From a virus, in the IMG/VR virus record IMGVR_UViG_3300017769_000119, positions 1 to 24,685 of that record: DNA of 24,685 nucleotides; one strand, given 5' to 3'. The notes under the pieces are model-generated. The model worked only from the letters and a program-made list of their open reading frames with translations. It was not told the DNA's origin and made no database searches. Each line of letters starts with the position of its first letter. The stretch's first letter is position 1. A program made the translations under genes and the position numbers. Positions 9,148-13,088 of the stretch are shown piece by piece.

Positions 9148-9197
9148 CCTGATCCACTTACGGATTATTTTTTCATTTGTTTAATTAGTTTGGTTTG

Positions 9198-9222
9198 CCC
9201 CCCTTCATTGGGGGGTTTTTTT
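9198..9222 (+). terminator. Intrinsic terminator ending the early operon
   Basis: CCCCCC (9198-9203), loop TTCATT and GGGGGG (9210-9215) are followed by seven T. This is a strong rho-independent terminator 50 bases after the last early gene. It separates the early operon from the NinG/sigma/terminase operon, so the latter needs its own promoter or antitermination. Confidence 0.9.
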
Positions 9223-9303: not shown

Positions 9304-9711
9304 ATGGCTACAAAAAACAAATATTTAGATAAAACACTATCCCAGCTCAAGGCGATAGCAGTTACTCATTTCCATAAATACATCAGAAACAGAGACAGAG
9401 GGAAACCATGTATCTCCTGTGGCCGACACACCACACTTCAAGCTGGACATTATTACTCAGCAGGACAGCATCCTTCTGTAAGATTTGATGAGGATAATGT
9501 GTTCGGCCAATGCCTATCCTGCAACTACTACAAACATGGCAACCTTATAAACTACAGCCATAACCTTCTAGATAGAATCGGTCAACAAAGGTTTCAGAAC
9601 CTAAAGCTGAAGATTGATCTTTCTAAGCGGTCAAGATTCAAATGGGATAAGTTCTACCTGATTGAGATTATAGAGAAATATAAAGCCCTTAACAAAAAAC
9701 CTAATGGATAA
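9304..9711 (+). CDS. ninG: NinG/Rap-like recombination nuclease
   Basis: This 135-residue protein matches the NinG (Rap) family of lambdoid and Bacteroidota phages, HNH/endonuclease VII-like enzymes that cut branched DNA during phage recombination. Visible features are CISCGR (Cys36, Cys39), QAGHYYSAGQHPSVRFDEDN (His49 and the family core) and GQCLSCNYYKHGN (Cys70, Cys73), giving a zinc site and the catalytic His region. It has about normal core length, without the long N-terminal extension of lambda NinG (about 200). It is the first gene after the terminator and overlaps the sigma-like gene by 8 bases. ATG 9304 is in frame; an ATG at 9300 is out of frame. Confidence 0.88.
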   Translation: MATKNKYLDKTLSQLKAIAVTHFHKYIRNRDRGKPCISCGRHTTLQAGHYYSAGQHPSVRFDEDNVFGQCLSCNYYKHGNLINYSHNLLDRIGQQRFQNLKLKIDLSKRSRFKWDKFYLIEIIEKYKALNKKPNG

Positions 9712-10273
9712 AAATAAAGCCATGAAGCTTATCTATGATCAATACGAAAAGATCAAAGAAAAGGTCTATGACATTGAGGTGAAATACTTTCACAAAAAAG
9801 GGATTTACCATGAGGATATTACTCATGACATGTTTTTAAAAATATACTCAGAGCTAGAAAAAATAGAAAACAGACCTGATCAAATTTTGAAATTTATAGA
9901 CCGAATCATTAATGGTCAGTTGTCTTATATATATATAACCGCCAAGAATATGTATCTCAACTTTTTAAGGAGAGAAAATAAATATGTGGCTTTTGATTAT
10001 CAAAAATTAACCAAAAGAGAAAAGGAAAGGCTAATTGAAATGCCTGAAAAATATCAAGAGTTTGATGATAACATACAGAAAAAAGTTGATGACTATGTAA
10101 AGACTTTTTACTGGTTTGACCAGAAGCTATTTGATCTGTATCGGTACGAGTTCAAAATGCACAAAACAGAAATGAGTAAGAAAACTAAACTATCCTACTC
10201 CACGATTTATAGAACTGTGAAGCGGTGCAAGGTTAAAATAAAAGACAAATTAAAAGGGGACTACTATGAGTAA
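9704..10273 (+). CDS. Sigma-70-like factor (phage late regulator candidate)
   Basis: This 189-residue protein has the layout of a small (ECF-like) sigma factor. The region 2-like part has YHEDITHDMFLKIYSELEKI (about 35-54) and a region 2.4-like helix with YITAKNMYLNFLRRENKYV. After an acidic linker (KYQEFDDNIQ), a C-terminal region 4-like helix-turn-helix follows: FDLYRYEFKMHKTEMSKKTK, LSYSTIYRTVKRCKVKIKDKL (about 145-184, split). Such proteins redirect host RNA polymerase. Here the likely targets are the two identical elements upstream of structural genes (13097 and 23981). Region 2 is divergent, so a HTH regulator is the alternative. It overlaps both neighbours by 8 bases. Confidence 0.7.
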   Translation: MDKNKAMKLIYDQYEKIKEKVYDIEVKYFHKKGIYHEDITHDMFLKIYSELEKIENRPDQILKFIDRIINGQLSYIYITAKNMYLNFLRRENKYVAFDYQKLTKREKERLIEMPEKYQEFDDNIQKKVDDYVKTFYWFDQKLFDLYRYEFKMHKTEMSKKTKLSYSTIYRTVKRCKVKIKDKLKGDYYE

Positions 10274-10640
10274 AAGCAAAGGTCTTGGAGATACTGTAAA
10301 AAAAGCAGCTCGCTATCTAGGGCTAGACAGACTTGCTAAAGAATACGAAAAAGCAACAGGAAACGATTGCGGCTGTGCTGACAGACAGGCTACTCTAAAC
10401 AGGTGGTTTGGATATAAGGGCACGTTTAGTCAATGGGAGTATGAATATCTAGACAGCTTTTTTCAAAGTTACACAGGCGGCAATCTTGAAAGTTTTGACC
10501 AGAGAGATATGCTGCTGCAAATATCAAACAGGATTTTTAATAGAAACGAGCCTCCTACTAGCTGCTCTTCCTGTCTAAAAAGCATGATCAATAGTTTAAA
10601 AACAGAATTTGATAAGTATGAAACGACTGGAAAAGATTAG
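10266..10640 (+). CDS. Hypothetical Cys-rich phage protein
   Basis: This 124-residue protein starts GLGDTVKKAARYLGLDRLAKEY, then NDCGCADRQATLNRWFGYKG (Cys35, Cys37), and near the end has SCSSCLKSMINSLKTEFDKY. The two cysteine pairs could share a metal. The same arrangement occurs in unnamed proteins just upstream of terminase genes in flavobacterial phages, as I recall. A structural, DNA-binding or assembly role is possible but not shown. It overlaps the sigma-like gene by 8 bases and the next gene by about 20 bases. Confidence 0.65.
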   Translation: MSKSKGLGDTVKKAARYLGLDRLAKEYEKATGNDCGCADRQATLNRWFGYKGTFSQWEYEYLDSFFQSYTGGNLESFDQRDMLLQISNRIFNRNEPPTSCSSCLKSMINSLKTEFDKYETTGKD

Positions 10641-11055
10641 AAATGTCAGAACGCATCCTGACAACCCTCGGCTGATTAAAGACATCAAGTTCGAAAAGCT
10701 GGTGCAATCTTTAAGGGACTTTCCTGAGATGCTTGAGAAGAGGCCTATCGTAGTAAATCAAGACTTGGTTTGCCTAGGTGGGAACATGAGACTGAAGGCA
10801 GCAAGAGAAGCAGGACTGAAAGAGATATGGATTGATGTAGCTGACTGGTCAGAGGAAAAACAAAGAGAGTTTATTATCAAAGACAACTCAGGCTTTGGAG
10901 AATGGGATTGGGATATACTAGCAAACGAGTGGAATCCTGAAGATTTAAATGACTGGGGGCTTGACCTACCTCCTATGTTTGAGGAAGAAGAAAAAGAAAA
11001 GAAAGAAAAACAAATATGTGATGTCTGTGGAAAACAACTATCGGCCTCTGCCTAA
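10618..11055 (+). CDS. ParB/Srx-domain protein (ParB nuclease-like, modification type)
   Basis: This 145-residue protein carries the compact ParB/sulfiredoxin-like domain common in Bacteroidota phages: NPRLIKDIKFEKLVQSLRDF, RPIVVNQDLVCLGGNMRLKA, then EKQREFIIKDNSGFGEWDWD. The GGNMRLKA loop replaces the GHRR motif of partition ParB. In many phages this domain is fused or adjacent to a DNA methyltransferase. Here there is none, but a SET-domain protein methyltransferase gene overlaps its end. The C-terminus is an acidic/basic run followed by CDVCGK, a half zinc ribbon. I prefer ATG 10618 to TTG 10609. It is the second ParB-like protein in the window. Confidence 0.78.
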   Translation: MKRLEKIRNVRTHPDNPRLIKDIKFEKLVQSLRDFPEMLEKRPIVVNQDLVCLGGNMRLKAAREAGLKEIWIDVADWSEEKQREFIIKDNSGFGEWDWDILANEWNPEDLNDWGLDLPPMFEEEEKEKKEKQICDVCGKQLSASA

Positions 11056-11302
11056 ATTTTTGACAATTAGTAAAAGCCAAATTCATGGCCTAGGATTATT
11101 CTCTACATCAGAGATACAGGCAGGAGTATGTTTAGGCATTAGCCACATAATAAAAACTAAGTGCTTTAGAACACCACTAGGAGGGTTTATAAATCACAGC
11201 GACCAGCCGAATTGTTTCATCATAGAAAAAAAAGACAAGAGATACTTGTACACAATACGGAAAATAAAAAAAGAAGAATTAACAGTTTATTACAGATTTT
11301 AA
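11021..11302 (+). CDS. Minimal SET-domain protein (putative lysine methyltransferase)
   Basis: This 93-residue protein shows the SET signatures in order: the N-terminal SAM-site motif IHGLGLFS (21-28), FINHSDQPNC (56-65; canonical NHSxxPNC), and the C-terminal EELTVYY (85-91; canonical ELxxxY). These bind S-adenosylmethionine and the substrate lysine channel. SET domains usually run about 120-140 residues, so the insert is almost absent. Start ATG 11021 is chosen because the conserved RPLPKFLTI lead-in begins a few residues later; the upstream open frame is the ParB tail read out of frame. It overlaps the ParB/Srx gene by 35 bases. Substrate unknown. Confidence 0.82.
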   Translation: MSVENNYRPLPKFLTISKSQIHGLGLFSTSEIQAGVCLGISHIIKTKCFRTPLGGFINHSDQPNCFIIEKKDKRYLYTIRKIKKEELTVYYRF

Positions 11303-11306
11303 AATT

Positions 11307-11608: not shown

Positions 11609-11627
11609 TGAGAAAATAATGAGAAAA
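11606..11627 (+). repeat. 11-base tandem repeat at the small-terminase start
   Basis: TAATGAGAAAA is perfectly duplicated at 11606-11616 and 11617-11627. The first copy contains the stop of the upstream gene, and the second ends at the terminase ATG (11627). Each copy offers an ATG. The first of these opens only ATG-AGA-AAA-TAA, so ribosomes may re-initiate here. A terminase recognition site is a weaker possibility. Confidence 0.5.
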
Positions 11628-11989
11628 TGGCTCGAGAAGATAATTTAAAACCCTTTAAGAAAGGTCATAAGATGGCAACAGGCAGACCAAAGGGATCACC
11701 TAACAGATCAACAGTAGCCAAGAAGTGGTTAGCTGCCATGACTAAAGGTATTAACCCTGAGACTGGAGAGGAAGAAAAAATGACATTGGAAGAAAGGATG
11801 ACACTTGCTCAAATATCAAAAGCGATAACAAGCAAAGACACACCAGCTTACAATGCTATCATGAACTCTGCCTTCGGTATGGCCAAAGAAACGATTGACC
11901 TGCATCAGATAGCAGAGCAACCCTTATTTGAAGATGTTCAAAAAGACAACAGCGATACAGAAGATTCAGAGGCTGACCAAGAGGAATAG
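11627..11989 (+). CDS. Probable small terminase subunit
   Basis: This 120-residue protein begins with a basic segment KPFKKGHKMATGRPKGSPNR (about 8-27). The GRPKGSPN stretch is AT-hook-like and typical of the N-terminus of phage small terminase-type proteins (DUF5681-like). A helical middle follows (TLEERMTLAQISKAITSKDT) and an acidic tail (EDSEADQEE). It sits directly before the large subunit and overlaps it by about 60 bases. Small subunits recognise the packaging site and recruit the motor. No classical HTH is obvious, so assignment rests on position and the basic N-terminus. Confidence 0.65.
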   Translation: MAREDNLKPFKKGHKMATGRPKGSPNRSTVAKKWLAAMTKGINPETGEEEKMTLEERMTLAQISKAITSKDTPAYNAIMNSAFGMAKETIDLHQIAEQPLFEDVQKDNSDTEDSEADQEE

Positions 11990-13088
11990 AATTATACAGG
12001 GAGGGACTTCGGCTTCTAAAACTTTTGGAATCCTAGCCTACCTTATAGACTACCTAATTAAAAACCCTTACATGGAATGCTCTGTCGTAGCGCAGACCTA
12101 CCCACATTTAAAAAGAGGTAGCCTTCGTGATTTTAAGAAGATCATGCAAATGACAGGCAGGTGGTTTCCTAATCGCTACAATAAATCTTCTTCTACATAC
12201 GAGTTTTTAAACGGATCAAAAATAGAGTTCTTCAGCGTTGACAATGAATCACGCATTAGGGGGGCACGCCGATCTATTCTGTTTATGAACGAGGCCAATA
12301 CCATTGGAAACTATGACACCTTTTTACAGCTATCTGTAAGGACAAGTCATTTCTGTTTCTTAGACTTTAACCCTACCCATGAATTTTGGGCGCACACAGA
12401 GCTTAAAAATGATCCAGATAGTGAATGGCTAGTCTTGAACTGGAAAGACAACGAGGCAGCCCCTGAAGCTGCTGTAAAGGAAATATTAAAAGCTAAAGAG
12501 AAAGCAGATAAAGGGAATGGTTTTTGGCAGAACTGGTTTTCAGTTTATGGTCTTGGGACTGTAGGGAAACTTTCTGGGGCAATATTTCAAAACTGGGAGA
12601 TAGGCGAGTTTCAAGAAGTATCTAAATCTGTGTTTGGTCAAGATTACGGAATGAACGATCCATCTACCCTTATAAAAACTTCGATCGATAAAGACAAAAA
12701 GATCATCTACGCCAAAGAGTGCTTTTACAAACAGAACCTAGTAACCTCTCAGATAGCACAGCTCAACAAAACATTTGCAGGGAATAATTTAATCATAGGA
12801 GACTCAGCAGAGCCAAGACTTATTCTAGAGCTGTCAAAAACATCAAACATAAAACCCTCGATCAAAGGACAGGGATCAGTAAACTTTGGAATCAGCATGA
12901 TGCAGGACTATGACATTGTAATTGATCCTCAAAGTGAAAACCTAATCAACGAACTTAAAAACTATGTATGGCTAGAGAAGAAAAGTCAGACACCAATAGA
13001 TGACTTTAACCATTGCATCGATGCCATGAGGTACGCTGTAGCCTATCAACTCTCCAATCCTTTTGCTGGAGAATATCACATTATTTAA
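11928..13088 (+). CDS. terL: Terminase large subunit (packaging ATPase and nuclease)
   Basis: This 386-residue motor protein pumps DNA into proheads and cuts concatemers. The ATPase domain has Walker A QGGTSASKT (24-32), Walker B ILFMNEAN (117-124, catalytic Glu122) and the coupling motif FLDFNPT (144-150). The RNase H-like nuclease has Asp239 (FGQDYG), Asp292 (IIGDSAEPR) and a late acidic motif DDFNHCIDAMRYA (358-370). It belongs to the Terminase_3/Terminase_6C type common in Bacteroidota phages. ATG 11928 gives the usual short lead-in; ATG 11934 is possible. A promoter-like repeat follows directly after the gene. Confidence 0.95.
   Translation: MKMFKKTTAIQKIQRLTKRNRIIQGGTSASKTFGILAYLIDYLIKNPYMECSVVAQTYPHLKRGSLRDFKKIMQMTGRWFPNRYNKSSSTYEFLNGSKIEFFSVDNESRIRGARRSILFMNEANTIGNYDTFLQLSVRTSHFCFLDFNPTHEFWAHTELKNDPDSEWLVLNWKDNEAAPEAAVKEILKAKEKADKGNGFWQNWFSVYGLGTVGKLSGAIFQNWEIGEFQEVSKSVFGQDYGMNDPSTLIKTSIDKDKKIIYAKECFYKQNLVTSQIAQLNKTFAGNNLIIGDSAEPRLILELSKTSNIKPSIKGQGSVNFGISMMQDYDIVIDPQSENLINELKNYVWLEKKSQTPIDDFNHCIDAMRYAVAYQLSNPFAGEYHII

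Follow-up and report, generated by a model that had tools for sequence, protein, structure and literature searches.

A compact SET-domain protein, probably a lysine methyltransferase, in an exchangeable slot before the terminase genes of a flavobacterial-type phage

Does a 93-residue open reading frame lying ahead of the terminase genes of a phage encode a lysine methyltransferase of the SET type, and what might such an enzyme do there? The window analysed is the whole 24,685-nucleotide stretch of IMG/VR record IMGVR_UViG_3300017769_000119. The original prediction, made from the DNA alone, described a SET protein far shorter than usual, of a kind rare in bacterial viruses, that overlaps a ParB/Srx gene and precedes the terminase. 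To our knowledge, SET lysine methylation has been studied almost only in eukaryotes, giant and algal viruses and secreted bacterial effectors.

The mini SET gene and its fold

Translation of positions 11021-11302 yields the protein MSVENNYRPLPKFLTISKSQIHGLGLFSTSEIQAGVCLGISHIIKTKCFRTPLGGFINHSDQPNCFIIEKKDKRYLYTIRKIKKEELTVYYRF, with GLGLF at residues 23-27, NHSDQPNC at 58-65 and ELTVYY at 86-91, just as predicted. The features of the gene are as follows.

11021..11302, + strand: mini SET-domain protein, 93 aa plus stop; identified by PF00856, phrog_28741, an AlphaFold (AF2) model and the fold match to vSET
11039..11053, + strand: YRPLP motif, residues 7-11, the N-terminal signature of the family, inside the overlap with the ParB-like gene; Y7 in 72/73 viral relatives, P9 and L10 in 73/73
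11087..11101, + strand: GLGLF, residues 23-27, the SET GxG motif on the SAM side; G23 and G25 invariant; aligns with GRGLF of MLL
11144..11146, + strand: invariant His42 of a (T/S)H pair, where SET-I would begin; 7 residues to R50
11168..11215, + strand: RTPLGGFINHSDQPNC, residues 50-65, with the NHxxxPN SAM/pseudoknot motif; R50, P52-H59, P63 and N64 invariant; aligns with FINHSxxPNC of MLL
11276..11293, + strand: ELTVYY, residues 86-91; Tyr91 is the predicted catalytic tyrosine; E86 and Y91 invariant

Conservation was counted over 73 distinct viral relatives, with 28 copies from bacterial contigs as a second set. Twenty positions are invariant in the viral set (73/73: P9, L10, S19, G23, G25, G39, H42, R50, P52-H59, P63, N64, E86 and Y91). 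These include the GxG, NHxxxPN and catalytic-tyrosine positions, and the GxG, NHxxxPN and (E)LTxxY motifs by which SET domains are recognised are all present. G25, N58, H59, N64, E86 and Y91 are also invariant in the bacterial-contig copies, where G23 and P63 are common, not invariant.

The protein matches PF00856 (SET) at E 2.7e-9 (37.8 bits; Pfam cut-off 22.4) and phrog_28741 at E 2.7e-21 over profile positions 3-94 of 100; NCBIfam supplies no name for it. The PHROGs v4 cluster phrog_28741 (100 positions, function not assigned) represents the same family, since 29/29 members of alignment A2 match it; it is a cluster description only, without chromosomal members or slot analysis. The AF2 model, built from a 36-row alignment of relatives, has a pLDDT of 89.6 and a pTM of 0.77. 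Among solved structures Foldseek ranks vSET (3kma) first (TM 0.75), with MLL, PRDM and further SET domains next, and in the library of predicted structures viral SET proteins fill the list of matches. Model and Foldseek matches together place the protein in the SET (beta-clip, pseudoknot) fold. The SAM and catalytic motifs, taken with the Pfam and fold matches, support the view of an unusually short SET-fold protein.

The gene is under purifying selection, with dN/dS of 0.07-0.31 across 12 pairs of relatives (window against L003, 0.09; window against L004, 0.13), and in 70/75 loci it is co-directional with and close to the upstream gene. Its shortness and its overlap with another gene might suggest a chance reading frame that resembles SET motifs. 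That reading has a negligible probability and is already excluded by the Pfam, PHROG and fold matches, the homologues (at least 598) and the low dN/dS. The exact start is uncertain: the codon at 11021 is kept as a start in L002, L003 and L322, while L004 has Ile at the matching position and must start further upstream. Starting at an alternative in-frame ATG, at 10949, would lengthen the protein to 117 aa.

The SET-I insert and the C-flank, which are typical of PF00856 but variable and not strictly defining, are missing from the 93-residue protein. His42 and Arg50 are joined without SET-I, the model has one short helix at 52-55, and the C-flank amounts to 2 residues past Tyr91. Many relatives, chromosomal ones included, stop within a few residues of the catalytic tyrosine, which makes the reduced form characteristic of the family, not a truncation in the window phage. 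Others carry C-terminal tails, and that of one chromosomal copy is predicted to be disordered. With SET-I and the C-flank missing, the substrate channel and adenine pocket would therefore be completed by something else; the substrate itself could do this, as could the YRPLP arm or a second subunit in a vSET-like homodimer.

The closest fold match, vSET (A612L of Paramecium bursaria chlorella virus 1, PDB 1n3j/3kma), is likewise a stand-alone viral minimal SET protein. The family profile covers it almost completely (positions 12-95 on 4-105, E 7.6e-9). vSET has 119 aa against 93; 102 of its residues align to 84 profile positions, 14 residues follow the last aligned one against 2 in the window protein, and identity across the fold alignment is about 19%. 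It has been titled the smallest histone methyltransferase (PMC7019647); it trimethylates Lys27 of histone H3 of the algal host and is packaged (PMC7019647, PMC3089700). Unlike in the algal host, histone H3 is not expected in the host of the window phage, which terminase relatives indicate to be flavobacterial. The top solved-structure sequence matches of the profile are MLL SET domains (E 2.3e-10). The motifs shared with eukaryotic SET domains of the MLL/KMT2 type align (GRGLF, FINHSxxPNC, GEELTYDY), whereas the SET-I, pre/post-SET parts and partner proteins of that type all have no counterpart in the window protein. In the cited accounts, prokaryotic SET methyltransferases (chlamydial, and archaeal on MC1-alpha) are active on DNA-binding proteins (PMC3089700; PMC10117894). 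These are prokaryotic like the window protein and, as far as those accounts describe them, include no phage member; the likeness is drawn from the cited papers, not from sequence comparison.

Occurrence in viruses and bacterial chromosomes

A scan of IMG/VR returned at least 598 confirmed relatives, and a second query, made from chromosomal members, at least 594, which may overlap with the first. By contrast, 50,697 phage records contain four good matches: pelagiphage Kolga, single-cell virus AG-345-P14 and cyanophages P-SSM7 and P-RSM6. Where annotated, these copies carry the label 'hypothetical protein'. The supposed rarity in bacterial viruses thus fails for environmental viruses and holds only for isolates; set side by side, the two counts make it a matter of which phages were isolated. 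Its members come from phages or contigs of Flavobacteria, Pelagibacter and cyanobacteria. In the open-access papers searched, none joined the SET domain with cyanophage, P-SSM7, viral contigs or auxiliary metabolic genes, and none on SET domains in phages or prophages described this family.

Bacterial and archaeal genome contigs hold 49 relatives, some of them probably phage sequence in metagenome bins. Gene context marks three sets as chromosomal: (i) in marine Flavobacteriaceae, with M16-peptidase-like genes as neighbours along with genes for a bile-acid symporter, a GDSL lipase and a glycosyltransferase; (ii) in other Flavobacteriaceae contigs (L082, L083, L086), inside the arginine biosynthesis operon in the argC–proC gap; (iii) in SAR92-type Porticoccaceae (L102, L103, L104, L115, L119, L128, L130), directly 3' of fabA-fabB. 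Each context is stable and the three are mutually unrelated; inspection of the surroundings of these copies revealed no phage genes. In several of the fabA-fabB-linked copies the Pro of the PN motif is replaced by Ser or Ala. Strong matches (E < 1e-20) occur in 20/397 Flavobacteriaceae genomes, mostly small ones.

In a tree of 120 proteins the virus and genome copies are interleaved, and well-supported branches force at least 3 changes of label. This branching demonstrates, at the level of protein sequences, that transfer between virus and chromosome has been repeated. The window copy sits amid mostly viral sequences, outside the flavobacterial chromosomal clade.

The slot before the terminase

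The neighbourhood of the gene comprises the following features.

10618..11055, + strand: ParB-like N-terminal domain protein, 145 aa; ATG at 10618, stop ending at 11055; equals the N-terminal part of the fusion protein of L323, L325 and L371
10981..11305, + strand: exchangeable cassette, the end of the ParB-like gene and the SET gene; an N6/N4 DNA methyltransferase of ~0.9 kb instead in L323; left edge A-rich, 10981-11006
11627..11989, + strand: probable small terminase or pre-terminase protein (DUF5681, E 0.0029, under the Pfam cut-off), named by its place before TerL
11928..13088, + strand: terminase large subunit (TerL; PF17288, E 4.6e-18)

The ParB-like and SET genes (10618-11055 and 11021-11302) share 35 bases, the overlap that had been claimed. 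The label ParB/Srx is fair at the level of the fold, given matches to ParB-like PHROGs with E as low as 2.5e-17 and a ParB_N match under the Pfam cut-off (E 0.0029). As a conserved pair the overlap was rejected, being confined to close relatives of the window; in L005 the two genes are adjacent or overlapping, depending on the start chosen. ParB-like proteins that are followed by SET (window, L004, L005) end in a short CxxCGK tail (ICDVCGKQLSASA, LCDTCGKQLSASA, CKICGKDI), and the DNA-methyltransferase fusions are without it.

TerL begins about 630 bases downstream of the SET gene, which confirms the predicted position ahead of the terminase. Among isolates, its nearest relatives (43% identity) are the TerL proteins of Flavobacterium psychrophilum phages. 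In 25/26 SET loci with this terminase family TerL follows downstream on the strand of the SET gene, and these loci represent several lineages of the terminase (8 groups at 60% identity, 6 at 40%). A second sample had this terminase family in 3/71 SET loci, two of them contigs already counted, and the pre-terminase position was rejected as a trait of the whole SET family; it belongs to one terminase family. In T4-like cyanophages the gene stands by nrdB/talC or by baseplate genes. A search for a neighbour conserved across the family, as a pointer to the substrate, found none; the neighbours change with phage type.

Two further features lie upstream in the window. A protein at 9704-10273 has weak similarity to sigma-70 region 2 (E 0.0046, under the cut-off) and an HTH-like C-terminal end, and is possibly a regulator of late genes. 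A strong terminator-like hairpin with a T run at 9197-9216, just 5' of the NinG gene, may part the replication genes from a NinG-ParB-SET-terminase unit.

The slot itself is variable. Contig L323, without a SET gene, has TerL 98%, the TerS-like protein 100% and NinG 100% identical to those of the window. By blastn, identity between the two is 91.0% as far as 11006 and resumes, with 97.5%, at 11306, four bases past the SET stop. The L323 slot (L323:2108-3304) encodes a 398-aa protein, the remainder of which fills the space between these points and in which a ParB-like domain is joined to an N6/N4 DNA methyltransferase (PF01555, 4.1e-26); L325 and L371 have the same fusion in the slot. In L327 the slot is taken by a C5 DNA methylase together with a Tet/JBP oxygenase, and L004 has a SET gene followed by a C5 methylase. 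Across related phages the C5 methylase of the slot occurs either by itself or along with a Tet/JBP oxygenase. Since the window arrangement recurs in L002, L003 and L322, and ParB stands next to SET in L005 as well, a single misassembly cannot explain the swap.

Because the L323 slot contains the full fusion, the ParB-like gene of the window corresponds to that fusion minus its DNA-methyltransferase half, with SET in its place. These fusions (phrog_498-type) occupy the same locus and have their ParB-like N-terminal domain in common with the gene upstream of SET. They differ from SET in fold and target, SET being a beta-clip protein methyltransferase and PF01555 a DNA methyltransferase. The best reading is that the SET cassette replaced the DNA-methyltransferase half of the ParB fusion, a direction of exchange that we infer from comparing the loci. 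A predicted DNA methyltransferase in this slot of near-identical phages changes how both the ParB-like and the SET gene are to be read. A DNA methyltransferase beside SET was rejected as a trait of the family: it is seen at few of 151 SET loci and the swap is local to the window lineage. L032 and L040, from two lineages, keep both genes.

Activity and target

We propose that the mini SET protein is probably a minimal SAM-dependent protein-lysine N-methyltransferase, encoded by an accessory gene of a flavobacterial-type temperate phage in an exchangeable modification slot. The protein would bind SAM and methylate a lysine, as suggested by its sequence and model, and the slot would lie between replication genes and terminase, with exchangeable modification genes as its contents. 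At the biochemical level alone, an active SAM-dependent lysine methyltransferase is strongly favoured by the fold, the conserved motifs and the selection on the gene. A SET fold that is catalytically dead and serves as a binder or scaffold would fit the want of SET-I and of almost all the C-flank, which leaves the modelled monomer with pockets for substrate and adenine that seem incomplete. Viral relatives down to 47% identity to the query keep the putative catalytic and SAM residues without exception, and we regard loss of catalysis as quite improbable.

As to what an active enzyme would modify, the family spans several bacterial phyla and unrelated chromosomal operons with changing neighbours, which favours, tentatively, a widely conserved bacterial protein over a neighbouring phage protein. 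That the chromosomal neighbours are unrelated speaks against a substrate in a single pathway, and with neighbours that vary and the same gene in unrelated chromosomal contexts, no neighbouring virion protein is indicated as substrate. A target among structural, packaging or DNA-binding proteins of the phage, the place before TerS and TerL reflecting a function in packaging, would accord with the same-strand TerL downstream in 25 of the 26 loci of this terminase family, across several lineages. The different placement in T4-like cyanophages, the scarcity of this terminase in the second sample and the chromosomal copies free of nearby phage genes all tell against such a target, which appears improbable. 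The cassette swap makes a role in counter-defence possible. The slot would then serve evasion of host restriction or defence, and SET would methylate and disable a host defence protein, or act on a phage protein exposed to it, in place of a protective DNA methyltransferase; the DNA-modifying enzymes found in the same slot of L323, L325, L371, L327 and L004 point this way. Yet the swap is local, few of the 151 loci have a DNA methyltransferase near, two lineages carry both genes, the stable chromosomal copies adjoin housekeeping genes, and PADLOC defence profiles gave no match to the SET protein at E <= 1. We consider counter-defence unlikely. That mini-SETs methylate a conserved bacterial protein (a nucleoid protein, say, or a factor in transcription or translation), with protein methylation taking over the task of DNA modification at the swap locus, is a speculative extension of the proposed methyltransferase role, to which we give a low probability.

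The mini-SETs, a family more compact than vSET, are common in marine phages and have become fixed in some marine bacteria, and the open-access papers searched describe no such family. Since isolates exist (Kolga, P-SSM7, P-RSM6), methyl-lysine proteomics during infection is feasible, and the exchange of DNA methyltransferase and SET between near-identical phages offers a ready natural comparison.
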